A stretch of 64,000 nt of DNA, taken from NCBI RefSeq assembly GCF_014489635.1, contig NZ_CP060828.1, positions 5,760,501 through 5,824,500 on the forward strand. The letters are read 5' to 3'. Below, in pieces: positions 13,870-25,222 of this stretch. Both the position numbers and the translations under genes were made by a program. Every line of letters begins with the position of its first letter. The first letter of the stretch is position 1. The notes beneath the pieces were generated by a model. It saw nothing but the letters and a program-made list of their open reading frames with translations. It was not told the origin of the DNA and did no database searches. This DNA is from Streptomyces roseirectus. GTDB taxonomy: Bacteria; Actinomycetota; Actinomycetes; Streptomycetales; Streptomycetaceae.

Positions 13870-14556
13870 CTACGGCAGGACGGTCACCAGGCCCGTGTCG
13901 AGGTCGAAGCGGGCGGCGGTCACCTGGGCGCCGGAGAACGCCGGGTCGTGGCGGAGGGTGTCGCGGACGCGGACCGTGTGGGCGGTCATGGTGTGCTCGG
14001 CCCAGTCGCCGGGGACGGCGCGGGTGCGGTGCGCGGCGGGGGCGATCTCCTCGACGAGGAGTTCGAGGTGGCCGGGGGCGTCGGCGCCGGACCGCAGGTG
14101 GTCGAGGGTCGCGGCGACCGCGCCGCAGCGCTCGTGGCCGAGGACCAGGACGAGGGGGATGCGCAGCTCCGCCACGCCGTACTGGACGGACGCGAGGACG
14201 GCCTCGTCCAGCACCTGCCCCGCCGTTCTCAGGCACAGCACGTCGCCGAGGCCCTGGTCGAAGATCAGCTCCGGCGGCACACGGGAGTCGACGCAGCCGA
14301 GGACGACGGCGTACGGGTGCTGGCCGCCCGCGAGGGCGTGGCGCAGGCGCCGGTCCTCGTGCGGGTGGCTGGGGCGGCCGGCCGCGTAACGCCGGTTGCC
14401 GGCGAGGAGTTCGGCCAGGGCCTCGGCGGCGGTGGCCGGAGGGCCGGTGCGGTGCGGACGGCGGCTGCGCGGGGCGCGGGTCGCGGCGGCGGCGGGGGCG
14501 GTGGCCAGGGCGGCGACGGCACTGGCCGTCAGGAAAGCCCGGCGGTTGGAGGGCAT
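13870..14556 (-). CDS. Beta-class carbonic anhydrase with Tat signal
   Basis: Zinc enzyme interconverting CO2 and bicarbonate, predicted to be exported folded. 228 residues from the ATG at 14556, preceded by GAGGAAG. A twin-arginine motif SNRRAFLTAS (3-12) and an Ala-rich hydrophobic stretch form the signal. Zinc and catalytic residues are in place: Cys88, Asp90 and Arg92 in GCVDSRVPPE, then His141 and Cys144 in GHERCGAV. A start at 14589 would bury the Tat motif. It is divergent from the RpiR regulator gene. Confidence 0.9.
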   Translation of the reverse strand: MPSNRRAFLTASAVAALATAPAAAATRAPRSRRPHRTGPPATAAEALAELLAGNRRYAAGRPSHPHEDRRLRHALAGGQHPYAVVLGCVDSRVPPELIFDQGLGDVLCLRTAGQVLDEAVLASVQYGVAELRIPLVLVLGHERCGAVAATLDHLRSGADAPGHLELLVEEIAPAAHRTRAVPGDWAEHTMTAHTVRVRDTLRHDPAFSGAQVTAARFDLDTGLVTVLP

Positions 14557-14737
14557 GACGCTTCCTCGGGGTCGTACGTGGATCCTCACGGGAGGGATGA
14601 ATCACCGTACGCGCGCAGTCACTTACTCTGCGTGCCTGTTTAACGATCCTTTGCCGGGCGGTGGTGCGGGGGAGCGGTGCGGCCTGTATGACAACATGCA
14701 GGGACGTCGCAGCCTGAATAGCCAGGGGGAGCACAAG

Positions 14738-15580
14738 ATGAGCGTGTCCGAGGGTCCCGCCGCGCGGCTTCAGGCGCTCTTCGAGGGGCACCGGCTCACG
14801 CCGACGCAGCGGCGGATCGCCCACAGCATGGTGCGGCGGGCCGCCGACGTGCCGTTCCTGTCCAGCGTCGAGCTGGCGGAGCTGGCGGGGGTGAGCCAGC
14901 CGTCCGTCACCCGGTTCGCCGTGGCCCTCGGGTTCGACGGGTATCCCGCGCTGCGGCGCCACCTGCGGGAGGTCGCGCCCGTCGAGTCGGCGGCGGCCTC
15001 CCGGCCGTTCAACGCGTACCAGCAGGCCGTCGAGGCCGAGATCTCCAATCTCCGGCATCTCGCGGAGGCGCTGGCGGACGACGGGCCCGTCCGGCGGGCC
15101 GGGCGGCTGCTCGCCGCGTCCCGGCCGCTGCCGGTGCTGGGGCTGCGGGCCGCGGCGTCCCAGGCGTACGGGTTCTCGTACTTCGCGGCGAAGGTGCACC
15201 CCGATGTGCGGCTGCTCGACGAAGGGGGGTCCATGCTGCGGGACCGGATCGACGCGGTCGTCCGTGCCGGGGCCTCCGCGCTGCTCTGTTTCGCGCTGCC
15301 CCGGCATCCCCGGGAGGTCGTGGAGGCGCTGGGGTACGCGAAGGGGGTGGGGCTGACGGTCGTGACCGTCGCCGACTCCGCGTTCGCGCCGGTCGCCAAG
15401 GTGTCCGACCTGATGCTGCCCGCGGCTGTGGGGACGGGGCTCGCCTTTGATACCGCCTGTGCGCCGATGCTGCTCGGGCGGGTGTTGCTGGAGGCGATGT
15501 GTGATGACTTGCCGGAGGCGCAGGCTTGGTTGGAGGAGTTCGACGCGGGGGCTGCGGCTCGGGGGTTGTTCGTGGAGTGA
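14738..15580 (+). CDS. MurR/RpiR family transcriptional regulator
   Basis: 280 residues: an N-terminal helix-turn-helix of the HTH_6 type (about 10-75, LSSVELAELAGVSQPSVTRFAVALGFDGYPALRRHL) and a C-terminal SIS sugar-phosphate-binding domain (about 105-245). The ATG follows GGGGGAG by 8 nt. Family members sense phosphosugars or related ligands and mostly repress. The target is unclear: the nearest genes are a carbonic anhydrase and a membrane protein, and related regulators are also found near hut genes, which here start 6 kb away. Confidence 0.88.
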   Translation: MSVSEGPAARLQALFEGHRLTPTQRRIAHSMVRRAADVPFLSSVELAELAGVSQPSVTRFAVALGFDGYPALRRHLREVAPVESAAASRPFNAYQQAVEAEISNLRHLAEALADDGPVRRAGRLLAASRPLPVLGLRAAASQAYGFSYFAAKVHPDVRLLDEGGSMLRDRIDAVVRAGASALLCFALPRHPREVVEALGYAKGVGLTVVTVADSAFAPVAKVSDLMLPAAVGTGLAFDTACAPMLLGRVLLEAMCDDLPEAQAWLEEFDAGAAARGLFVE

Positions 15581-15687
15581 GGGGGCGTCAGGGGGGGGCG
15601 GGGCTTTCTCAGGTTCGTTTCACGTTCGGTCGGTAGGTTTCCCGGCGAAGTCCGGACCGGAGGATCGGCTTGGGGAGGCGAGGCGTC

Positions 15688-16269
15688 GTGCGCGGTGGGC
15701 AAGGGTTGGTTCGGGTGGCTGTTGTGGTGCGGGCCGCTGCTGTGGGCTGGTGGTGGTGCGGGGTGTTGGGGGCGGGGGTCGGGGTGTTGGTGCCGGGGGT
15801 GACTGGGCGGCGGATCGGGGTGCTCGCGGGGGCCGCGGGGTTCCTCGTGGCGGCGTTCGTTGTCGCGTGGGCGCGGCGTCGGCGGTACGAGGCGCTGGCG
15901 CGGGGGGCCGTGCGGGCGGGGAAGCACGACCTGCTCCAGGACCGGGGCGTCAGCGTGCGGAACTGGCGGCGGGGGCATCGGTGGGGGCTGGCCGGGGCGT
16001 TCCTTGTGGCGGTGGGGAGTTCGTTCGTGGTGCCCGCGGGGGTGGGGATGCTGATCGCCGGGTGCGGGGTGGGGCTGTGGTGGAAGGCCGTCCGGCTCGG
16101 GCGGTGGGAGCGGGGGGCCGGGGAACTGCTGTGGGTGCGGGTGGACTGGCTGGGGCGGCGTGGGGGCGGGGTGGTCGGCAAGGGGGTCAAGGGGTTCCGG
16201 AGTACCGGGATCGCGGCGGGCGATGCGGCTCCTGGGGGAGCGCGCCGACGGGCTGGGGCTTCGGCGTGA
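15688..16269 (+). CDS. Hypothetical membrane protein, 193 aa
   Basis: No known domain. Two hydrophobic pairs are visible (about residues 15-55 and 95-125), separated by a basic stretch (WARRRRYEALARGAVRAGKHDLLQDRG), suggesting four helices or two hairpins. The C-terminal 60 residues are basic and Gly-rich. The GTG at 15688 has GGAGG about 10 nt upstream; a TTG at 15670 is possible. It converges with the Roadblock operon, 97 bp away. Confidence 0.65.
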   Translation: MRGGQGLVRVAVVVRAAAVGWWWCGVLGAGVGVLVPGVTGRRIGVLAGAAGFLVAAFVVAWARRRRYEALARGAVRAGKHDLLQDRGVSVRNWRRGHRWGLAGAFLVAVGSSFVVPAGVGMLIAGCGVGLWWKAVRLGRWERGAGELLWVRVDWLGRRGGGVVGKGVKGFRSTGIAAGDAAPGGARRRAGASA

Positions 16270-16366
16270 GCGGGCGGTGGCCCGGGTTTTCGGGTCGGCC
16301 GTGATGTGACGCGGGCCGGGCGGGTGTGGGGCCCCGCCCGGGGACCGGCGTTCGTCCTGAAGGGCC

Positions 16367-16741
16367 TCAGACCTCCAGCTCCTCCTCGATCCGCTTCAAC
16401 TGGTGGCGCGCCATCGCCAGGTTGGAGCGCTTGGAGTCCAGGACGAGGTACAGGAAGAGGCCGTTGCCGCTGCGACCGCTGAGCAGCCGCAGCAGGTGGT
16501 ACTGGTCGCTGAGGGTGATGAGGATGTCCTCGATCTGGCCCTTCAGGCCCAGGTGCTCCATCGTGCGCATCTTCGCGCGGACGACGTCCGTGTTGCCGGC
16601 GGCGGCGACGTTCAGGTCGAAGCTCTTGCTGCCGCCGAGCGTGCCGAGGGCCATGCCGCTGGTGTAGTCCACGAGGGCGACGGCGGTGGCCCCCTCGATC
16701 GAGGCGAGGGCTTCCTTCAAGGCGGTCTCGGTGTTGGCCAT
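16367..16741 (-). CDS. Roadblock/LC7 domain protein, 124 aa
   Basis: Last gene of the leftward Roadblock operon. The whole 124-residue protein is one Roadblock-like domain: ATAVALVDYTSGMALG, VVRAKMRTMEHLGLKGQIEDILITLSDQYHLLRLL, then NGLFLYLVLDSKRSNLAMARHQLKRIEEELEV. It is a paralogue of the first gene of the operon (19464-19865; DWTSGLALG, LIITNPDSYHLLHFL, NLALTRIRLEEL). Family members bind and regulate small GTPases, but no GTPase is encoded here. The ATG at 16741 has GAAAGGAA upstream and lies 14 nt after the preceding stop. Confidence 0.85.
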   Translation of the reverse strand: MANTETALKEALASIEGATAVALVDYTSGMALGTLGGSKSFDLNVAAAGNTDVVRAKMRTMEHLGLKGQIEDILITLSDQYHLLRLLSGRSGNGLFLYLVLDSKRSNLAMARHQLKRIEEELEV

Positions 16742-16755
16742 GACGGTGGTTCCTT

Positions 16756-17295
16756 TCAACTCTCTTCGGTGGAGCGCGCGTTGTTGGATGGAGTGCGCGC
16801 GGGTAAGGGGGGAAGCGTGGGGAGGGGGACGCCGTCGGAGGCGCCGGGGGCGGGGGGAGAGGTGGGCTTGGCGGGAGTGGACGGTTTTCTCGTCGCGGTG
16901 CCCTTTCGCGCCGTTCTCTCCTTGGCCGCCGCGTCGACCAACTCCCCTATCCGCGTGCTGGTCCGGCGTCCTTCGAGGTGCAGGCGGCCCACGTTCACGC
17001 GGTCCTGGGCGAGCAGCGTGAGGACGGCCGCGTCGCCGGCGGCGTACGTCGCGACGTACCCGTCGACTCCCCGGACCAGCAGTTCCCGGAGTTCGCCCTG
17101 CCCGGTCGCCTCCGCCAGGCGGACGGCCACGCCGAGCGCGGCGGCGGTCAGGGCGGCGACGCCCTCCGGTTCGACGCCGGGGGTGTCCGCCGCGAGGACG
17201 AGTCCGTCGACGCTGGCCGCCAACACGCCCGTGAGCTGCGGGACTCCTACCCGAAGCCGCCTCAACTCGTCGAGTATCTCGGCCTCGTGAGCCAT
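16756..17295 (-). CDS. Roadblock/LC7 domain protein with a TTA codon, 179 aa
   Basis: Roadblock domain (about 10-115: LTGVLAASVDGLVLAAD ... GVDGYVATYAAGDAAVLTLLAQDRVNVGRLHLEGR), the type found in CvnB proteins of conservons, followed by a Lys/Pro/Thr-rich tail. Codon 164 (plus-strand 16804-16806) is TTA, checked codon by codon from the TGA at 16756-16758, so full-length synthesis needs bldA tRNA. The ATG at 17295 follows a GGAGAG site. Its partner GTPase and DUF742 genes, normal in conservons, are missing. Confidence 0.85.
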   Translation of the reverse strand: MAHEAEILDELRRLRVGVPQLTGVLAASVDGLVLAADTPGVEPEGVAALTAAALGVAVRLAEATGQGELRELLVRGVDGYVATYAAGDAAVLTLLAQDRVNVGRLHLEGRRTSTRIGELVDAAAKERTARKGTATRKPSTPAKPTSPPAPGASDGVPLPTLPPLPARTPSNNARSTEES

Positions 17296-17329
17296 CAGGT
17301 CTCTCCTCTCGGCCTGCGGCCGATACCGC

Positions 17330-18367
17330 TCAAAGGGCTTCCAGCGCATCTCTGAGCCTTCTCAGCAGGTTGATGTGAGGGTCGTCATCGGGGCCCACCT
17401 CGTCCGGAGGGGGCGGGGCGGGGGTGGTTGGGGAAGTGGTGGCGGTCGGGGGAGGTTCGGCAGGCGGCGCGGATGTGGACGTCGGGGAGATGGCAGCCGG
17501 GGAAGGATCAACAGGCGGCGCGGATGCGGAAGTTGGGGAAGGGATGGCGGGCGGTGCGGATGCGGCAGCCAGGGAAGGGCCAACAGGCTGCGCGGATGCG
17601 GCAGTTGACGTGGATCCGGCGGCCGGTGCGAGGGTTGTGGACGGGGTGGGGCCAACGGCCCTGTGGCTGGCGTCAGTTGGCGGAGCCTGCGGCCTCGCCG
17701 TCACCAACCCCGCCGCGGCCAGCCGGCGGACGTCGAGCAGGACCGGGAAACCCCGGCGTCCGAGCCGGCGTGCGATGTCGGAGGCCGTGCGCTCGCCGTC
17801 GACCTCGTCGAGCACCGCGCGTCGCCGTGCGGGGAGTTGTGGCGGCGGACGGGAGTCGGCGCGCACGAGGGGCGCCTCGTCGACGCGGCCGTCCGGCCAG
17901 GCCCGCTCCAGCAGGGCCCGGCGTCGAACCGTCTCCCGCTCCAGCGCGCCGGCCTCGACGGGGCGGACGACGCCGGGGACGTCCCCGGCGTCGTCATACC
18001 GGAACCGGGCGGGCGCATCGGCGGGCGTCAGGGTGAAGTACGCGGCGTCGTAGAGGGCCCCGAGCAGACAGACCTCCGCGGCGCCGCGAGGTAAATACCC
18101 CTCGTCGACGAGAACCCGCACCGCGTCCCCCCGACCGACAGCACTCCGCCACACATCACGCTCCAGCACACCACCGGAAGCCAACAACGCTCCCACCCCC
18201 GGCACCGACGAACTCTCCGCACCCACCACCCTCCCCCGCACCACCCACAACACCCCACCCGCCCGACTCAACACCCCACTCGCCCCTTCCCCCGCAACCC
18301 GAGCCAACAACCCCGAAACCTCCCCCACAAGATGAGCCCGAACGGGCAGAGCCTCCACGACCACCAT
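17330..18367 (-). CDS. Probable DUF4388-like regulatory protein with a TTA codon
   Basis: 345 residues. The N-terminal half (LVGEVSGLLARVAGEGASGVL ... VVRGRVVGAES) resembles DUF4388/PATAN-type domains of two-component systems. A winged-helix-like segment near 195-235 (RRAVLDEVDGERTASDIARRLGRRGFPVLLDVRRLAAAGLV) follows, then a low-complexity Ser/Ala/Pro tail (about 250-320) built from DNA repeats at 17460-17610, and a terminal helix HINLLRRLRDALEAL. Leu92 is encoded by TTA (18092-18094, frame checked against the start at 18367). The ATG overlaps the stop of the upstream gene (TGATG). Domain names are my reading of short patterns. Confidence 0.7.
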   Translation of the reverse strand: MVVVEALPVRAHLVGEVSGLLARVAGEGASGVLSRAGGVLWVVRGRVVGAESSSVPGVGALLASGGVLERDVWRSAVGRGDAVRVLVDEGYLPRGAAEVCLLGALYDAAYFTLTPADAPARFRYDDAGDVPGVVRPVEAGALERETVRRRALLERAWPDGRVDEAPLVRADSRPPPQLPARRRAVLDEVDGERTASDIARRLGRRGFPVLLDVRRLAAAGLVTARPQAPPTDASHRAVGPTPSTTLAPAAGSTSTAASAQPVGPSLAAASAPPAIPSPTSASAPPVDPSPAAISPTSTSAPPAEPPPTATTSPTTPAPPPPDEVGPDDDPHINLLRRLRDALEAL

Positions 18368-19467
18368 CACCACCCCCTCACAGGGAGGTTGAGGGCGAGG
18401 GCGGGAACGAGGACGTGGGTGAGAGGGAGGGCGTGGGCAAGGGCGAAGGCGTGTGCGGGAACGAGGACGTGGGTGAGGGGGAGGGCGTGGGCGAGAGCGA
18501 AGGCCGGGGCGAGGACAAGGGCGGAAGTGAAGTCGTGGACGTGGACGAAGGCGAGGCGTTGGCCCCCACGCTCCCACCGCCCAGCACCAGCCACCTCTCC
18601 GCCGTTCTCCCCCCAACTTCCCCGGCCCTCGTCGCCGGCCGCCCAACTCGCCGTGTCACCCTCGACGTTCAGGCCGCCGGCCTCGAAGCCGACCGCTCGA
18701 CTCCCGACCCAGGCGCCGCCCCGGCAGCCCGCACCGGCTGCCCAACTCACGGCACCGCACTGGGTACTCCGGACACGGACCGCAGCCCCGGTCGCCCGGC
18801 ACCGCGCCCCGCCTCCTCGGCCGTCGCCCCCACGCTCCCACCGCCCAGCACCAGCCACCTCTCCGCCGTTCTCCCCCCAACTTCCCCGACCCTTGCCGCC
18901 AACCCCCCAACTCACCGCGTCACCCTCGACGTTCAGGCCGCCGGCCTCGAAGCCGACCGCTCGACTCCCCACCCCGGCGTCAGCCGCCCAACTCGCGGGG
19001 CCGGGCTCGGAGTCAGGGCTGCGGCCCTCGAAGCCGTCCGTTCGACTGGCCCCGCCCTCGGCCGCTCGACCGCCGGGGCCCTTCGCCCAACTCGCGCTAT
19101 CAGCACCAGAGTTCCGGTGGTCGCACCCGGACCGGGCGGTCAGACCCTGCGCCCCGCCCTCGCCTCCCCGGCCTCCGGCCCCGATCCCCTGGCCGGCGCC
19201 CCCGACGCCTGTCGACCAACTCGCGGAGCCGGTCTCGGGGTTCAGGCCATCGCCCCCGTCGATCCCCGCCCCGCCGTCCCCGGCACGCCGGCACCCGCTC
19301 TCCAGCTCAGCCTTCCAACCCGCGAAGTCGTGCCCGGAGTCAAGGGCATCGCTCCCGCAGATCTCCACCCCGCCGCCCCCGGCGTGCCGGCCTCCACCCC
19401 CCAATCCCGCCCTCCAACTCCCCACGCCACCCAAGCCGTTCAGCACCCCAACCTCCCGCCCCCTCAC
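18367..19467 (-). CDS. Gly-rich repeat protein in the Roadblock operon, 366 aa
   Basis: No recognisable family. Evidence that it is translated: its GTG overlaps the upstream Roadblock stop (GTGA, 19467-19464), its TGA overlaps the next ATG (TGATG at 18367), and this frame has high third-position G/C throughout, near 90% at the 3' end. The protein is mostly Gly/Ala/Ser/Glu with recurring SWAAG and SRAVGFEAGGLNVEG units. A 264-bp (88-codon) offset repeat covers 18563-18708 and 18827-18972. The C-terminus has 18-residue repeats (ALPLTHVLVPAHAFALAH) from a 54-bp DNA repeat. Role unknown, possibly a spacer or scaffold for the Roadblock proteins. The bottom-strand Ser/Pro/Thr frame at 18378-18659 is the main alternative. 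Confidence 0.55.
   Translation of the reverse strand: MRGREVGVLNGLGGVGSWRAGLGGGGRHAGGGGVEICGSDALDSGHDFAGWKAELESGCRRAGDGGAGIDGGDGLNPETGSASWSTGVGGAGQGIGAGGRGGEGGAQGLTARSGCDHRNSGADSASWAKGPGGRAAEGGASRTDGFEGRSPDSEPGPASWAADAGVGSRAVGFEAGGLNVEGDAVSWGVGGKGRGSWGENGGEVAGAGRWERGGDGRGGGARCRATGAAVRVRSTQCGAVSWAAGAGCRGGAWVGSRAVGFEAGGLNVEGDTASWAAGDEGRGSWGENGGEVAGAGRWERGGQRLAFVHVHDFTSALVLAPAFALAHALPLTHVLVPAHAFALAHALPLTHVLVPALALNLPVRGW
18401..18972. repeat. In-frame DNA repeats inside the Gly-rich gene
   Basis: Two kinds. A 54-bp unit begins at 18401 and 18455 (GCGGGAACGAGGACGTGGGT start), with a diverged third part. A roughly 145-bp block at 18563-18708 recurs at 18827-18972, offset exactly 264 bp. Both periods are multiples of three, so expansion keeps the reading frame. 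Confidence 0.75.
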
Positions 19468-19865
19468 GCCAGCACCAGCTTCCTCGCCAGTTCCTCCAGG
19501 CGGATCCGCGTGAGGGCGAGGTTGCCCTCGTGGCGGGTGAGGCAGATGTGGAGGAAGGCGGTGGTGTCGAGGGAGGTGGGGAGGAAGTGGAGGAGGTGGT
19601 AGCTGTCGGGGTTGGTGATGATGAGGTCGGTGATGGGAGGGGCGTCGGAGGGGGAGGGGGTCGAGGAGGGGTCCGGGGTGAATGCGCGTTGTTCCGTGGC
19701 CAGTCGGGCGAGTTCGGCGGATTCCGTCGCCGCGATCTCGGGATCCCCGCCGGGAAACTCCCCGACGATCCCGAGGGCGAGCCCGCTGGTCCAGTCGACC
19801 AGGGCGGCACCCCGGGCGCCGGGCAGGCGCATGGCCTCCAGCAGACACTCGTCGATTCCGGGCAC
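19464..19865 (-). CDS. Roadblock/LC7 domain protein, first gene of operon
   Basis: 133 residues from the GTG at 19865, which has GGGAGGGAG 8 nt upstream. Roadblock-like fold: ARGAALVDWTSGLALGIVGEF, a helix with ATESAELARLATEQ, then ITDLIITNPDSYHLLHFL and TTAFLHICLTRHEGNLALTRIRLEELARKLVLA. A short Pro/Ser insert (about 75-86) is unlike its paralogue at 16367-16741. It heads a five-gene leftward operon whose promoter must lie within 19866-20005, where a 27-bp inverted repeat is found. The stop codon overlaps the GTG of the next gene. Confidence 0.82.
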   Translation of the reverse strand: MPGIDECLLEAMRLPGARGAALVDWTSGLALGIVGEFPGGDPEIAATESAELARLATEQRAFTPDPSSTPSPSDAPPITDLIITNPDSYHLLHFLPTSLDTTAFLHICLTRHEGNLALTRIRLEELARKLVLA

Positions 19866-19939
19866 CAGTGACTCCCTCCCCCTGTGGTACGGCTGAGTGA
19901 GAGAGACGCTACAGACCGTGTGTGCGACGGGTGAGGGCT

Positions 19940-19980
19940 TTGGCAATTTCACTTGGAAAATGCCAACGGCAAGCTAGAGT
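19940..19980. promoter_or_regulatory. Inverted repeat and rightward promoter upstream of Roadblock operon
   Basis: TTGGCAATTTC (19940-19950) and GAAAATGCCAA (19956-19966) form 11-bp arms with one mismatch and a 5-bp spacer, 75 bp upstream of the operon start. Overlapping it on the plus strand is TTGGAA (19953-19958), 16 bp, TAGAGT (19975-19980), a good promoter that points right, into the 3' end of the decarboxylase gene, with no rightward gene behind it. Confidence 0.55.
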
Positions 19981-20005
19981 AGGCGAGTTTGCCTGGTTTT
20001 CGGGG

Positions 20006-21403
20006 CTATCGGGGACCCAGAGAAGTGAGCGCGTCCGCGTACGCCCCGCCCGCCTCCGCGACGATCGACTCGACCGACTGGGCCGCACGGACCAACGCGA
20101 ACTCGACCCGCCCGTCCGCACCGGGCGCGTACCCGTAGACGGCGGGCCGGGGAAGGGAGTTGTAGGCGTAGTGGTGGATGAAACAGTACGCGCCGGTGTC
20201 CAACGCGGCGGCGTAGTCCCCCTGTTCGAGCAACGGCAGACTCCGCCCCCGAGCGAGTAGATCCCCGGAGAAACAGGCGGGCCCGGCGACGTCCTGGACG
20301 ACTTCGGGCCCGCCCTTGACCCGCCCCTTCGCGTCGTACGCGGCGATCCGCAGCGGCCAGGCCGCCGGCGCGTACACGGTCCGCGTGGCGACCTGGACGC
20401 CCGCGTGGGTGACGGCGATCCGCCGCCCGCCCGCGTGCTTGGCGTACTCGACGCGCGCCACCAGCGTCCCCTGCTTCGCCAGCAGCGACCGCCCGAACTC
20501 GGTGACCAGCCCGTACCGCCCGTCGAACAGCCCCGGCACGGCCTCCCGGAGCAGACCGGCGTACTGCGCGTACGTCGGCGTCGTCTCGTCGGAGGCGTAG
20601 TGGACCGGCAGACCGCCGCCGATGTCGACGGTGTCGATCTGCCGGCGCCCGACGCGCCGGTTGATCTCCTCGGCGAGTGCGTACGCCTCGGCCACTCCGC
20701 GCGCCATCAGCGTCAGTGGCACCCCCTGCGAGCCGGTGTGCGCGTGCAGCCGGGTCAGCCACGGGCGCTCGGCGTACGCCCCGATCACCCACTCCCGCGC
20801 GCCCTCGTCCCGCAGGGCCACCCCGAACTTGGAGGTCGCCGTCGCCGTGGACGTCGACTCGATCGTCCCGCCCCCTACCTGGGGGTTAATCCTGATACCC
20901 AGGGGTGACGTGCTCGGCGCCGACCGCATCAGGGCGTCGATCCGCGCCAGCTCCTGCGGATTGTCGGCGTTGACGGCGATCCCCAGCGCCAGCGCCTCCC
21001 GCAGCTCGGCCGGGGTCTTCGCGGGGGAGTCGAGGACGGTCGCCCGGGGCCCGAAGCCGGCCGCCCGCGCCAGCGCCAGCTCGCCGGGGCTCGCGACCTC
21101 CGCGCCGAGACCGGCGTCCCCCAGGAGTCGTAGTACCCCTACCAGAGGGGCAGCCTTCACGGCGAACGCGTGCAGGACCGGGGTGCCCGCGGGGACGACG
21201 GCGTCGAACGCGGCCCGCAGCTCCCGCGCCGACTCCCTGATCCCCACCGCGTCCAGCAGCCCCACGACCGGGACGTCCGCCCCGAGCAGGCCCTGTTCCA
21301 CCGCCGCGCGCACCGCGTCGTCCCGGCGCGCCGCCCGCGCCTCGTCCGCCGTCTGCCGCACATCAGCCCCCGTCGAGGTCGTCCGGTATCGCGAGCGGAG
21401 CAT
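20006..21403 (-). CDS. PLP-dependent decarboxylase, DapDC/ODC fold
   Basis: Fold-type III enzyme like diaminopimelate decarboxylase, 465 residues. PLP lysine in HAFAVKAAPL (K83), glycine loop DIGGGLPVHY (about 260), and the C-terminal CFSGDLLARG (about 385) plus DTGAYCFIHHYAYNS that close the active site across the dimer. It differs from true LysA in the region after the lysine and in having no linked lysine genes, so the substrate could be another amino acid or a carboxylated polyamine precursor. It lies between the Roadblock operon and hutU and is divergent from hutU by 151 bp. Confidence 0.82.
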   Translation of the reverse strand: MLRSRYRTTSTGADVRQTADEARAARRDDAVRAAVEQGLLGADVPVVGLLDAVGIRESARELRAAFDAVVPAGTPVLHAFAVKAAPLVGVLRLLGDAGLGAEVASPGELALARAAGFGPRATVLDSPAKTPAELREALALGIAVNADNPQELARIDALMRSAPSTSPLGIRINPQVGGGTIESTSTATATSKFGVALRDEGAREWVIGAYAERPWLTRLHAHTGSQGVPLTLMARGVAEAYALAEEINRRVGRRQIDTVDIGGGLPVHYASDETTPTYAQYAGLLREAVPGLFDGRYGLVTEFGRSLLAKQGTLVARVEYAKHAGGRRIAVTHAGVQVATRTVYAPAAWPLRIAAYDAKGRVKGGPEVVQDVAGPACFSGDLLARGRSLPLLEQGDYAAALDTGAYCFIHHYAYNSLPRPAVYGYAPGADGRVEFALVRAAQSVESIVAEAGGAYADALTSLGPR

Positions 21404-21554
21404 GCCCCGTCCGTCGGCCGGGTGTGCTCCTCCTTCCAGCCAAACACCCGTACGGCGTGCGTGTCGGTTCCGCGCGCTATTGACTAGTTCTATTCACCTG
21501 GCCAGGATGTGAATACAAGCGGAATATCGGCGACGTGCCCCCAGGAGGCAGCCC

Positions 21555-23219
21555 ATGTCAGGACCCCGGCCCGTGCGAGCCCCCCGCGGAACCGAACTGA
21601 GCGCCCTGGGCTGGCAGCAGGAGGCGGCCCTGCGGATGCTCCAGAACAACCTCGACCCCGAGGTCGCCGAGCACCCCGACAAGCTCGTCGTCTACGGCGG
21701 CACCGGCAAGGCCGCCCGCGACTGGCGCTCCTTCGACGCGATGGTCCGCACCCTGCGCACGCTCAAGCAGGACGAGACCATGCTCGTCCAGTCCGGGCGT
21801 CCCGTCGGCGTCATGCAGACGCACGAGTGGGCGCCGCGCGTCCTCATCGCCAACTCCAACCTCGTCGGCGACTGGGCCAACTGGGAGGAGTTCCGCCGCC
21901 TCGAAGCGCTCGGGCTGACCATGTACGGCCAGATGACCGCCGGGTCCTGGATCTACATCGGCACGCAGGGGATCCTCCAGGGCACCTACGAGACGTTCGC
22001 CGCCGTCGCCGCGAAGAAGTTCGGCGGCTCCCTCGCCGGAACGATCACCCTCACCGCCGGGCTCGGCGGGATGGGCGGCGCCCAGCCGCTCGCCGTCACC
22101 ATGAACGACGGCGTCGCGATCTGCATCGACTGCGACCCGCGCGCCATCGAACGCCGCATCGAGCACCGCTACCTCGACGTCAGGGCCGACAACCTCGCCC
22201 ACGCGCTCCAGCTCGCCACCGAGGCCCGCGACGCCCGTCGGCCGCTCTCCATCGGCCTCCTCGGCAACGCCGCCGAGCTGCTTCCGCAGATGCTCGCCGA
22301 GGGCGCCCCCATCGACATCGTCACCGACCAGACGTCCGCCCACGACCCGCTGTCCTACCTGCCGGTCGGCGTCGCCTTCGAGGACATGGCCGACGCGGCG
22401 GCGAAGGACCCGGCCGGGTTCACCACGCGGGCCCGCGAGTCCATGGCCCGGCACGTCGAGGCGATGGTCGGCTTCATGGACGCCGGCGCGGAGGTCTTCG
22501 ACTACGGCAACTCCATCCGGGGCGAGGCCCAACTCGCCGGTTACGACCGGGCGTTCGCGTTCCCCGGGTTCGTCCCCGCCTACATCCGCCCGCTGTTCTG
22601 CGAGGGCAAGGGCCCCTTCCGCTGGGCCGCGCTCTCCGGTGAGGCGTCCGACATCGCCAAGACCGACAAGGCGATCCTCGACCTCTTCCCCGAGAACGAA
22701 TCGCTGCACCGCTGGATCAAGATGGCCGGTGAGCGCGTCCACTTCCAGGGCCTGCCCGCCCGCATCTGCTGGCTCGGCTACGGCGAGCGCGACAAGGCCG
22801 GCGAACGCTTCAACGACATGGTCGCGAGCGGCGAGCTGGCCGCGCCGCTGGCCATCGGCCGCGACCACCTCGACGCCGGTTCCGTCGCCTCCCCCTACCG
22901 CGAGACCGAGGCCATGCTCGACGGCTCCGACGCGATCGCCGACTGGCCGCTGCTGAACGCCATGGTCAACGTCGCCTCCGGCGCCTCCTGGGTCTCCATC
23001 CACCACGGCGGCGGCGTCGGCATGGGCCGCTCCATCCACGCCGGCCAGGTCACCGTCGCCGACGGCACTCAGCTCGCCGGCGAGAAGATCCGCCGCGTCC
23101 TCACCAACGACCCCGGCATGGGCGTCATCCGCCACGTCGACGCCGGCTACGACATCGCCGAGACGGCGGCCGACGAACGGGGCGTACGGGTGCCGATGCG
23201 CGAGGGCGGCGCCGCGTGA
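21555..23219 (+). CDS. hutU: Urocanate hydratase
   Basis: Second enzyme of histidine degradation, converting urocanate to imidazolone propionate with tightly bound NAD; cytoplasmic. 554 residues, normal length. The family signature [16 protein letters not shown] with its catalytic-region Cys is at about 396-411, and the NAD-binding [18 protein letters not shown] stretch near 171-188. The ATG follows AGGAGGCAG. It begins a four-gene operon: the stop overlaps the GTG of the amidohydrolase by 4 bp. hutH (histidase) is not in the window. Confidence 0.97.
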
Positions 23220-25222
23220 GCGACGACACCACTGCGGCGGGGAACCGGAGCACGCCCCCGCCGCCCACCCCGGCCCACCCCGCCCAGCCCCCGTCCCCGG
23301 CCCCGAAACCCCCGGCTCGGCCCTCGGCGTCGGTCCCGGAACCCCCGGCTCGGTCCTCGGCGTCGGTCCCGGAACCCCCGGCTCGGTCCTCGGCGTCGGT
23401 CCCGGAACCCCCGGCTCGGTCCTCGGCGTCGGTCCCGGAACCCCCGGCTCGGTCCTCGGCGTCGGTCCCGGAACCCCCGGCTCGGTCCTCGGCGTCGGTC
23501 CCGGAACCCCCGGCTCGGTCCTCGGCGTCGACCTCGGAGCACCCGGCTCGGCCCTTGTCCCCGGCCCCGGAACCCCCGGCTCGGCCCTCGGCGTCGGTCC
23601 CGGAGCGCCCCGCCCGGCTCTCGGCGTCGGCCTCGGGTCACCCCGTCCAACCCCCGTCACAGACTCCGGGCCGCCTCGTCCAGCCCTCGGCGTCGGCCTC
23701 GGGTCACCCCGTCCAACCCCCGTCACAGACCCCGGGCCGCCTCGTCCAGCCCTCGGCGTCGGCCTCGGGTCACCCCGTCCAACCCCCGTCACAAACCCCG
23801 GGCCGCCCCGTCCAGCCCTCGGCGTCGGCCTCGGGTCACCCCGTCCAACCCCCGTCACAAACCCCGGGCCGCCCCGTCCAGCTCTCGGCGTCCGCCCCGG
23901 GCCACCCCGCTCGGCCCTCGGCGTCCGCCCCGGGCCACCCCGCCCGGCCCTCGTCCCCGGCCCCGGAACCCCCCGTCCACCCCCCGTCGCCCACGCCCCC
24001 CACCTTCCAGGAGATGTGGCGGGAGCTGCGCCCCCTCGGCCGGCACCCCGACTCCGGTGGCTACCGGCGTTTCGCCTGGACCCCGGCCGACGCCGAGTGC
24101 CGGGGCTGGTTCGAGGGGCAGGCGCGGTTGCGGGGGCTTGTGTACGAGGTCGACCGGAACGGGAACCAGTGGGCCTGGGTGGGCGACCCGGGCGCGGGGG
24201 ACGCTGTCGTCATCGGGTCGCACCTCGACTCCGTGCCCGACGGGGGCGCTTTCGACGGCCCCCTCGGGGTCGTGTCGTCGTTCGCCGCGCTCGACGAACT
24301 CCGCGCCCGGGGCGTCGAGTTCACCAGACCCCTCGCCATCGTCAACTTCGGCGACGAGGAGGGCGCCCGCTTCGGCCTCGCCTGCGTCGGATCGAGGCTC
24401 ACCGCGGGGCAGCTCACCAAGGAGCAGGCGCACCGGCTGACCGACGGGGACGGCATCACCCTCCCGAGGGCGATGGAGACCGCCGGGTACGACCCGGACG
24501 CGATCGGCGTCGACAGCGACCGCCTCGACCGGATCGGCGCGTTCGTCGAACTCCACGTCGAGCAGGGCCGCGCCCTCGACCTGAGCGGCGACCGGGTCGG
24601 CATCGCCAGCGCCATCTGGCCCCACGGCCGCTGGCGGTTCGACTTCCGCGGCGAGGCCAACCACGCGGGGACGACCCGGCTCGTGGACCGGCGTGACCCG
24701 ATGCTGTCGTACGCGGAGACCGTCCTCGCCGCCCGCAGGGAGGCCCGGCTCGCCGGCGCCGTCGCGACGTTCGGGAAGATCGCCGTCGAGCCGAACGGCG
24801 TCAACGCGATCCCCTCGCTCGTGCGGGGCTGGCTGGACTCCCGCGCCGCCGACCAGGAGAGCCTGGACGCGGTCGTCACCGGCGTCGAGCAGGCCGCGCA
24901 CGCGTACGCGCGGGAGCACGGCGTCGAACTGGACGTCGTGCGCGAGTCGTTCACGCCGGTCGTGGAGTTCGACCACGCCCTGCGGGACGAACTCGCCCGC
25001 ATCCTCGGCAAGGAGAAGGACCCCGCCCTCGCGGTCCCCGTGCTCGGCACCGGCGCCGGACACGACGCCGGGATCCTGTCGGGGCGCGTCCCGACCGCCA
25101 TGCTGTTCGTGCGCAACCCCACAGGCGTCTCGCACTCCCCGGCGGAGTTCGCGGCCGAGGACGACTGCGTCGCCGGGGTGCGGGCGCTCGCCGACGTAGT
25201 GGAAGGGCTGGCCGGCAAGTGA
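23216..25222 (+). CDS. M20 amidohydrolase (allantoate amidohydrolase-like) with repeat extension
   Basis: Zinc amidase of the M20 allantoate amidohydrolase/N-carbamoyl amino acid hydrolase group. The enzyme proper starts near residue 263 ([20 protein letters not shown]). Metal and substrate motifs follow in order: [65 protein letters not shown]. The first 262 residues are Pro/Ser/Ala tandem repeats, absent from usual members of about 400 residues. The GTG overlaps hutU's stop (GTGA), and the stop overlaps hutF's GTG. Between hutU and hutF it could deformylate N-formylglutamate, taking the place of HutG; that is inference. The ATG at 24013 lacks a properly spaced ribosome site, so the repeats are probably translated. 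Confidence 0.85.
23296..23990 (+). repeat. Coding minisatellite: 33-bp and 66-bp tandem repeats
   Basis: Inside the amidohydrolase gene. First, about six near-identical 33-bp units encode [11 protein letters not shown]. Then four 66-bp units encode [20 protein letters not shown] plus QP, and shorter [11 protein letters not shown] units follow. Unit lengths are multiples of three and copies differ by few bases, which points to recent slippage or unequal exchange. Confidence 0.9.

Follow-up and report, generated by a model that had tools for sequence, protein, structure and literature searches.

The locus studied here lies within a 64,000-nucleotide stretch of the Streptomyces roseirectus genome (the window) and is a module of four genes in the order RB1 – D4388 – RB2 – RB3 (Table 1), whose products are three small Roadblock proteins and one scaffold-like protein, D4388. 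Our best explanation of the locus as a whole, which we hold tentatively, is that it represents a PATAN-Roadblock regulatory module, conserved in actinobacteria, that has no GTPase of its own. The original prediction counted five genes, the fifth being a Gly-rich ORF that we have dropped as a gene. Its account of the remaining members, three Roadblock proteins of which two are paralogues and one is CvnB-like, together with a DUF4388-like protein, agreed with our results, as did its statement that the cluster has no kinase, DUF742 or GTPase gene.

Table 1. Features of the locus; coordinates refer to the window.
Feature	Coordinates	Strand	Remarks
RB3, 124 aa, Roadblock fold	16367..16741	-	most conserved module member
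RB2, 179 aa, MglB/CvnB-type Roadblock	16756..17295	-	Robl_LC7 match
TTA codon in RB2	16804-16806		
D4388, 345 aa, DUF4388/PATAN-like	17330..18367	-	hhalign to DUF4388 proteins
TTA codon in D4388	18092-18094		
GC-rich repeat insert, ~1.1 kb	18370..19463		earlier "Gly-rich repeat protein"; probably non-coding
RB1, 133 aa, GTG start	19464..19865	-	Roadblock-like paralogue of RB3
Operator-like palindrome GGCATTTTCCAAGTGAAATTGCC	19942..19964		77-99 bp upstream of RB1

Conservation of the gene order

The gene order is kept in Streptomyces, where 80 related loci provided 75 usable complete clusters. Outside these counts are L066, whose RB1 frame was mis-extended, and L068, L099, L109 and L116, which are incomplete at contig ends. 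Of 40 RB3 loci from outside Streptomyces, hand-picked among search matches for variety, 10 showed the identical order (L145, L174, L178, L179, L181, L182, L184, L195, L201, and L202). The genome under study has a second, rearranged module (L133), in which RB3' is divergent from RB1'-D4388'-RB2'. No GTPase was identified at the modules of other families or at L133.

No paper on the four-gene module and no published phenotype for the locus were found in the open-licence literature, and the same literature returned no papers for SCO3074-SCO3079, which we guess to be the S. coelicolor tags for the locus. To that extent the locus is undescribed, as had been claimed, but passages of PMC4316618 already describe PATAN(DUF4388) genes near MglA/MglB genes, as well as an actinobacterial MglB clade made up of orphans only, whose genes have no conservon neighbors.

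The three Roadblock proteins

RB2 had a clear match to Robl_LC7 in Pfam (E 1.4e-16, 60.4 bits against a curated cut-off of 23), and its sequence relatives in the PDB include an Asgard Roadblock protein (2.8e-10) and Rv3364c (1.2e-4). An alternative upstream start, an ATG at 17349, is possible. In a tree from which L014 was omitted as a short match, RB2 was separate from the genome's own 11 CvnBs, at a point where the program warns that long branches meet, and its kinship to CvnB therefore does not imply shared targets.

RB3, whose family was matched in 131 of 150 genomes of the same genus, has no assigned Pfam family, and a sequence-profile search of the PDB produced weak matches only, mostly to ubiquitin-like proteins (best E 0.064). 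Its identity was consequently settled by fold comparison. The AF2 model (pLDDT 92.1) has the Roadblock topology, helix-2 strands-helix-3 strands-helix, and Foldseek and VIA matched it to MglB, MglC and Ragulator, so that we are confident in predicting a Roadblock fold for RB3. RB1, which is kept in the 75 related clusters, had no Pfam match and nothing at E<=1 among PDB sequences; its assignment to the Roadblock family comes through its homology to RB3 (hhalign 99.4%). The GC3 values of RB1 and RB3 are 0.90 and 0.98, respectively. No sequence kinship between RB2 and RB3 was detectable, and sequence and model comparisons together show that RB1 and RB3 form a family separate from the MglB/CvnB type of RB2.

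Paralogues of RB3 were observed near a conservon at five of 26 Streptomyces paralogue loci (L158, L161, L205, L209, and L210, in a scan of L157-L162 and L205-L224). We suspect that these reflect one shared event and have not counted them as evidence.

D4388 as a candidate PATAN-like scaffold

Homology of D4388 to DUF4388 proteins was identified by hhalign (probability 98.2%, E 5.8e-14, 207 columns). The window protein falls below the Pfam cut-off for DUF4388, with no match at E<=1, and the family had no matches at E<=0.001 in the whole genome; one orthologue (P0318) reaches 25.1 bits against the cut-off of 25, and PF14332 is carried by three of the 120 orthologues listed. D4388 consists of a PATAN-like domain, a winged helix, a Pro/Ala-rich linker and an amphipathic C-terminal segment, DPHINLLRRLRDALEAL. 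This architecture is unchanged between GTPase-less and GTPase-linked forms, and the hhalign match to the GTPase-linked DUF4388 proteins spans both the PATAN domain and the winged helix.

The C-terminal motif was present in all 76 Streptomyces copies and in all ten of the non-Streptomyces four-gene modules, and the linker ahead of it ranged from 14 to 114 residues in the 47 of 76 Streptomyces copies whose linker start could be anchored. A similar short amphipathic terminal sequence occurs in the GTPase-linked DUF4388 proteins with a complete end (n=3, leaving out the off-frame L149 6210 and L149 6867 and the contig-cut L150 6599). The motif is missing from D4388 in five rearranged modules (L188, L189, L191, L198, and L200) and likewise from the D4388' reading frame in L133. 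In the AF2 model of D4388 the C-terminal helix (329-343) has low confidence, about 50-58, and pLDDT is 82-94 in the blocks covering residues 161-230.

GTPases in the genome and in distant relatives

Pfam searches of the cluster's five ORFs identified neither a CvnA kinase nor a DUF742 CvnC at E<=1. No GTPase was found in the transcript, none of the 11 CvnD-like matches in the genome lies inside the window, and the absence extends to all 80 related loci scanned. The genome encodes 14 Robl_LC7 proteins in addition to its 11 CvnD-like GTPases, and 12 of the 14 are within 1 kb of such a GTPase, the exceptions being RB2 and RB2'. Every GTPase found has an adjoining Roadblock protein, and none is visibly awaiting the module.

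The RB3 family was clustered with a GTPase in four of the 40 hand-picked non-Streptomyces loci (L148, L149, L150, and L152), which gives the module GTPase-bearing relatives in other Actinomycetota. The GTPases of L148 and L149 match ATP_bind_1/Ras and the CvnD profile, and the GTPase and Roadblock protein of L152 are under the Pfam cut-offs; L149 and L150 are from draft genomes that are 89% and 81% complete. Based on these four loci, loss of the GTPase in the Streptomyces line is likely, with gain elsewhere as the alternative.

In a survey of 49 genomes, a strong GTPase match (best E <=1e-50, the threshold having been chosen once a gap showed in the list) was present in 22 of the 22 genomes whose RB3 locus adds RB2 or D4388, or 19 of 19 when the three known beforehand (G363, G373, and G388) are set aside, and in 17 of the remaining 27, a co-occurrence for which genome size and ancestry are confounding factors. 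Four RB3-positive genomes (G684, G379, G154, and G276) had only weak GTPase matches, 5.5e-11 to 4e-7, and at the loci seen their RB3 had no partners, which indicates that RB3 alone can occur without a CvnD-class GTPase.

Proposed mechanism and comparison with known systems

With some hesitation, we favor a mechanism in which the module's products form a complex resembling that of RomR, MglC and MglB and act in trans on conservon GTPases. The module would once have included its GTPase, since lost in the Streptomyces line. By analogy with the docking of the RomR helix on MglC, the C-terminal helix of D4388 would dock onto an RB1/RB3 pair, which would in turn join RB2 as MglC does MglB. The assembly would then act on at least one of the 11 conservon-type GTPases, adjusting GTP hydrolysis or location according to something that D4388 senses. 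In addition, D4388 may use its winged helix to bind the unique palindrome that precedes RB1, and so control its own operon.

The precedents are that the C-terminal helix of RomR binds the Roadblock protein MglC with a KD of 2.6 nM (PMC12719032), that MglB and MglC form a complex (PMC7949163), that MglB/RomY is a bipartite GAP (PMC9481161) and that MfpD, a CvnB homologue, is a GAP (PMC13343842). The resemblance of D4388 to Myxococcus RomR is one of architecture, not of homology. Compared with the MglA-MglB-MglC-RomR/RomY system, the module has a PATAN-like domain in place of the receiver domain, lacks a GTPase gene and has all four genes clustered.

The module resembles conservons in having an MglB-type Roadblock protein, RB2, and in that the GTPases of its GTPase-linked relatives L148 and L149 match the CvnD profile. 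It differs in that CvnA kinase, DUF742 and GTPase are missing from its ORFs, in the addition of two Roadblock paralogues and a PATAN-like protein, and in the position of RB2 apart from the genome's own CvnBs. It likewise shares with the neighborhoods in PMC4316618 the placement of PATAN beside Roadblock genes and an orphan MglB outside conservons, whereas the four-gene module, the RB1/RB3 family and the C-terminal helix do not appear in the passages of that paper. The same passages state that no orphan MglB-type protein had been experimentally characterized by the 2014 survey, and the module supplies a concrete hypothesis for such proteins.

The wiring of conservon GTPases, of which a Streptomyces has a dozen or so (11 here; S. 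coelicolor has 13 conservons, according to PMC13343842), is poorly understood, and a module of the GTPase-regulator type with GTPase-bearing relatives offers a direct route to asking about co-regulation in trans. A broader proposal, that the module is a widespread GTPase-less Roadblock hub, a shared trans regulator of many conservon GTPases after losing its dedicated one, appears doubtful to us. If true, it would add a cross-talk control layer over Streptomyces G-protein signaling, of which we found no description.

A transcriptome study reports that three "dynein regulation protein LC7" genes respond to acid stress (PMC7317143); these could not be linked to the module. Another paper, PMC2367054, was rejected as its passages use "roadblock" in another sense.

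The palindrome upstream of RB1

Of 76 close Streptomyces copies, 74 have a counterpart of the palindrome ahead of RB1, as judged against a shuffled control, and its zero-mismatch pattern has a single site in the genome. These observations, and the absence of a GTPase from the related loci, are compatible with a GTPase-independent transcription switch in which D4388 would bind the palindrome and RB1, RB2 and RB3 would affect how it binds DNA or oligomerizes. We consider this rather unlikely. The winged-helix region is the best-confidence part of the D4388 model, D4388 has a weak HTH_20 match (E 0.0034, under the cut-off) and many of the orthologues listed carry the NCBI names "transcriptional regulator" or MarR family; however, GTPase-linked DUF4388 proteins show similar weak winged-helix matches, so the region may be a protein-interaction domain, and Foldseek returned nothing for D4388 at E<=0.001 (best E 0.4, the leading rows including SEA/GATOR1 parts). 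By eye, moreover, the palindrome was not intact in L133, in six other-family loci or in two more loci of the genus, one of which, L203, keeps one half. With up to two mismatches there were nine genome sites, the module's own counted twice, versus eight in a reversed control, and no wider regulon is therefore apparent.

TTA codons

The original prediction took the complex to be possibly bldA-dependent. The window strain does have TTA codons in D4388 and RB2, and a tRNA-Leu with anticodon TAA, which we take to be bldA, lies 13 kb from the cluster in the same window. Among the 75 related clusters, TTA was found in only 17; the codons are spread over three genes and lie at varying positions, never in RB3. 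The relatives had 20 TTA among 54,886 cluster codons, whereas the 90,432 matched codons taken from three flanking genes included none, as raw counts uncorrected for leucine content or constraint. The idea that TTA codons time the synthesis of a developmental signaling complex would fit this excess but not the scarcity and scatter of the codons, and we regard it as improbable for the module. What remains of the claim is that bldA dependence is possible in the window strain, judging from its codons, and is not a core feature of the module.

The insert between RB1 and D4388

In relatives RB1 and D4388 usually meet at a tight junction, which in the window is replaced by the GC-rich insert. The Gly-rich ORF was rejected as a gene based on its lack of a coding signature and of a match in related loci: the positional GC signature is absent, ORFs are open on both strands, and tblastn found no counterpart in 80 related loci, although both RB1 and D4388 are present in 76 of these. 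The insert is probably non-coding.

The window copies of RB1 and D4388 are the most diverged of 76 (mean identity 68.3% vs a median of 83.0%, and 53.3% vs 65.9%, respectively), unlike RB3, whose identity is unremarkable (89.9% vs 90.2%). One reading is decay or relaxed selection in the operon's front half, with RB1 and D4388 drifting after the repeat insert parted them. This seems quite unlikely given that both frames are open and that D4388 still has its C-terminal motif and RB1 its upstream palindrome; the window strain may simply represent a less sampled lineage.

Elsewhere in the genome and in 60 relatives the insert sequence was matched by short pieces only, and a long dispersed repeat was rejected, the other three matches in the genome being just 36, 55 and 119 bases. 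Within the insert itself there is a direct repeat of 178 nt, 88% identical.

The locus comprises four genes and a repeat insert

Leftwards on the minus strand from position 19865, the locus encodes RB1, about 1.1 kb of GC-rich repeats, D4388, RB2 and RB3, where RB1, RB2 and RB3 are Roadblock-type proteins and D4388 is a DUF4388/PATAN-like protein. The original prediction was an operon of five genes that included a gene for a Gly-rich repeat protein. We revise this to a four-gene module plus an insert, because the repeat stretch lacks the positional GC signature of a coding region, has open frames on both strands and had no tblastn match across 80 loci from Streptomyces and related bacteria. 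The stretch contains a 178-nt direct duplication. RB1 and D4388 were both present in 76 of the 80 related loci, and their spacing was -4 to 77 bp in the 75 usable complete clusters. Comparison of the repeat-stretch DNA with 60 relatives identified pieces of up to ~130 bases in 37 and no match in 23. Among the loci compared, an insert between RB1 and D4388 is, by sequence, seen in the window strain only. The RB1 and D4388 that flank it are the most diverged of the 76 copies, and RB3 is ordinary.

Features of the module and its surroundings (window positions)
Feature	Position	Strand	Details
tRNA-Leu, anticodon TAA	3095-3180	+	
RB3	last gene leftwards	-	124 aa; third-position GC 0.98
RB2	ATG at 17295	-	179 aa counted from that ATG
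D4388	between repeat stretch and RB2	-	345 aa
RB1	right end 19865	-	133 aa; third-position GC 0.90
Candidate operator palindrome	19942-19964		upstream of RB1; basis: conservation and unique zero-mismatch site

ARAGORN also called a tRNA-Ser(CGA) antisense within RB2 (17104-17191, plus strand). This call is likely false; nothing in 14000-24000 reached the Rfam gathering threshold, and six related loci gave no tRNA call either.

Roadblock and DUF4388-like proteins

Judged by its match to Robl_LC7 (E 1.4e-16), RB2 is an MglB/CvnB-type Roadblock protein; its sequence relatives in the PDB were an Asgard Roadblock (2.8e-10), mycobacterial Rv3364c (1.2e-4) and, weakly, CvnB5 (0.003). RB3 matched no Pfam family. 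Its AlphaFold2 model was confident (pLDDT 92.1, pTM 0.87), and the solved structures closest to it were MglB, MglC, Ragulator and other Roadblock proteins. RB1 is a paralogue of RB3 on sequence grounds.

D4388 itself was beneath Pfam detection for DUF4388, and the match of its family profile to recognised DUF4388 proteins spanned the PATAN and winged-helix regions (98.2%). An amphipathic C-terminal motif follows a Pro/Ala-rich linker in all 76 Streptomyces copies; the linker has 14-114 residues in the 47 copies with an anchorable start, and 105 in the window. The D4388 model was partly confident (mean pLDDT 65.2), with the predicted C-terminal helix falling in low-confidence blocks. The motif was also found in ten non-Streptomyces four-gene modules and at the end of three complete GTPase-linked DUF4388 proteins, and was missing from five rearranged modules. 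In a second module of the same genome (L133:9830-10851), the D4388' frame terminates within the linker and helix-like sequence ending HRVRDLLAALP runs on in another frame, which may represent a frameshift, a sequencing error or chance.

Distribution of the module

Of 150 genomes sampled from the same genus, 131 had matches to the RB3 protein, and a profile of the RB1/RB3 family had matches in 106/394 class-level and 18/296 phylum-level genomes, both samples containing some Streptomyces. The genome itself has the second, rearranged module (L133), in which RB3' is divergent from RB1'–D4388'–RB2', and a solitary RB3 (L134). Outside Streptomyces, 40 loci in 32 genomes (L145-L155, L174-L202) were hand-picked from the matches for variety, and their counts are not prevalences: ten had RB1–D4388–RB2–RB3 on one strand, two had RB3 divergent from RB1–D4388–RB2, seven had RB1 and RB3 only, five had RB3 with RB2 and/or D4388 and no RB1, four had a GTPase in the RB3 cluster, and twelve had RB3 alone. 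In 17 of 17 Streptomyces loci with a solitary RB3 (L206-L208, L211-L224), profiles for RB1, D4388, RB2 and the GTPase were unmatched in the fetched stretch. RB3 may also serve a function of its own.

Of the 26 Streptomyces paralogue loci scanned, five (L158, L161, L205, L209, L210) have a solitary RB3 paralogue at a distance of ~4-5 kb from a conservon GTPase; the paralogue lies upstream of the conservon kinase gene and shares its strand.

GTPase-bearing relatives and GTPase co-occurrence

L148 is a run of four overlapping or almost adjoining genes: RB3 is followed by a GTPase of Ras type (Ras E 1.6e-9), a Robl_LC7 protein and a protein of 382 aa that matched no Pfam family. L149 and L150 group DUF4388, a GTPase, a 219-222-aa protein, RB2 and RB3, and L152 has RB3 with a GTPase-like protein and a Roadblock protein, both under Pfam cut-offs. 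The 219-222-aa protein (L149:8335-8994, L150:2237-2905) sits between the GTPase and RB2 and had no significant Pfam match.

In a tree of RB2 proteins, the 11 CvnBs (conservon Roadblocks) of the genome formed one side of a branch (98/96); module RB2s clustered with that of L148 and the RB3-adjacent RB2s of L149 and L150 (100/99), whose second RB2s grouped with the CvnBs. Our reading is that the GTPase was lost in the Streptomyces line; it stays a reading because the program warns that long branches meet at the CvnB/module split, the L148 branch is itself long and the tree is rooted at its midpoint only.

In the genome, a Robl_LC7 protein lies no more than 1 kb from each of the 11 CvnD-like GTPases, and the only two Robl_LC7 proteins placed elsewhere are RB2 and RB2'. 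We surveyed 49 genomes (35 with RB3, 14 without) for a strong GTPase match (best E <=1e-50, a threshold chosen after a gap in the list was seen). All 22 genomes whose RB3 locus also holds RB2 or D4388 had one, as did 19/19 once G363, G373 and G388 were left out, these being known beforehand and two of them (G363 and G388) having also given rows to the query profile. The remaining genomes had one in 17/27 cases, made up of 9/13 with RB3 whose inspected loci matched neither the RB2 nor the D4388 profile (among them G285, the source of L152) and 8/14 without RB3. This co-occurrence is confounded by ancestry and genome size.

Orphan MglBs and PATAN–MglB neighbourhoods are already published (PMC4316618). 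In the open-licence literature searched, which leaves most subscription journals outside, we found no account of a module of four genes in which two more Roadblock paralogues take part, of its GTPase-bearing relatives or of the shared C-terminal motif.

Proposed mechanism

Among the Myxococcus polarity proteins, the C-terminal helix of RomR is reported to bind the Roadblock protein MglC by itself with a KD of 2.6 nM (PMC12719032), MglC to bind MglB (PMC7949163), and the MglB/RomY pair to form a bipartite GAP (PMC9481161); MfpD, a CvnB homologue, is described as a GAP and MfpC as a likely GEF (PMC13343842). The architecture of D4388, with a folded N-terminal part, a Pro-rich linker and a C-terminal helix, resembles that of RomR. 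By analogy, we propose that the D4388 helix would tether an RB1/RB3 pair, that RB2 would supply an MglB-like surface, and that the assembly would act in trans on conservon GTPases.

Alternatively, the module could be a GTPase-free transcription switch, as D4388 has a winged helix and the palindrome upstream of RB1 is retained in 74/76 close Streptomyces copies. Palindromes of equal quality arise rarely when the upstream sequences are shuffled, and the zero-mismatch site occurs once in the genome; however, sites with <=2 mismatches are no commoner there than in the control, and neither the paralogous module nor the more distant loci inspected have the palindrome intact.

TTA codons

D4388 and RB2 of the window each contain one TTA codon, and the tRNA-Leu with anticodon TAA, which we take to be bldA, lies 13 kb from this cluster. 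TTA was present in 17 of 75 related clusters (20 of 54,886 codons, with RB1 codon 8 accounting for seven). The lysA, hutU and rpiR genes of the same loci had no TTA among 90,432 matched codons. This suggests that TTA may be a recurrent yet optional translational brake on the module.
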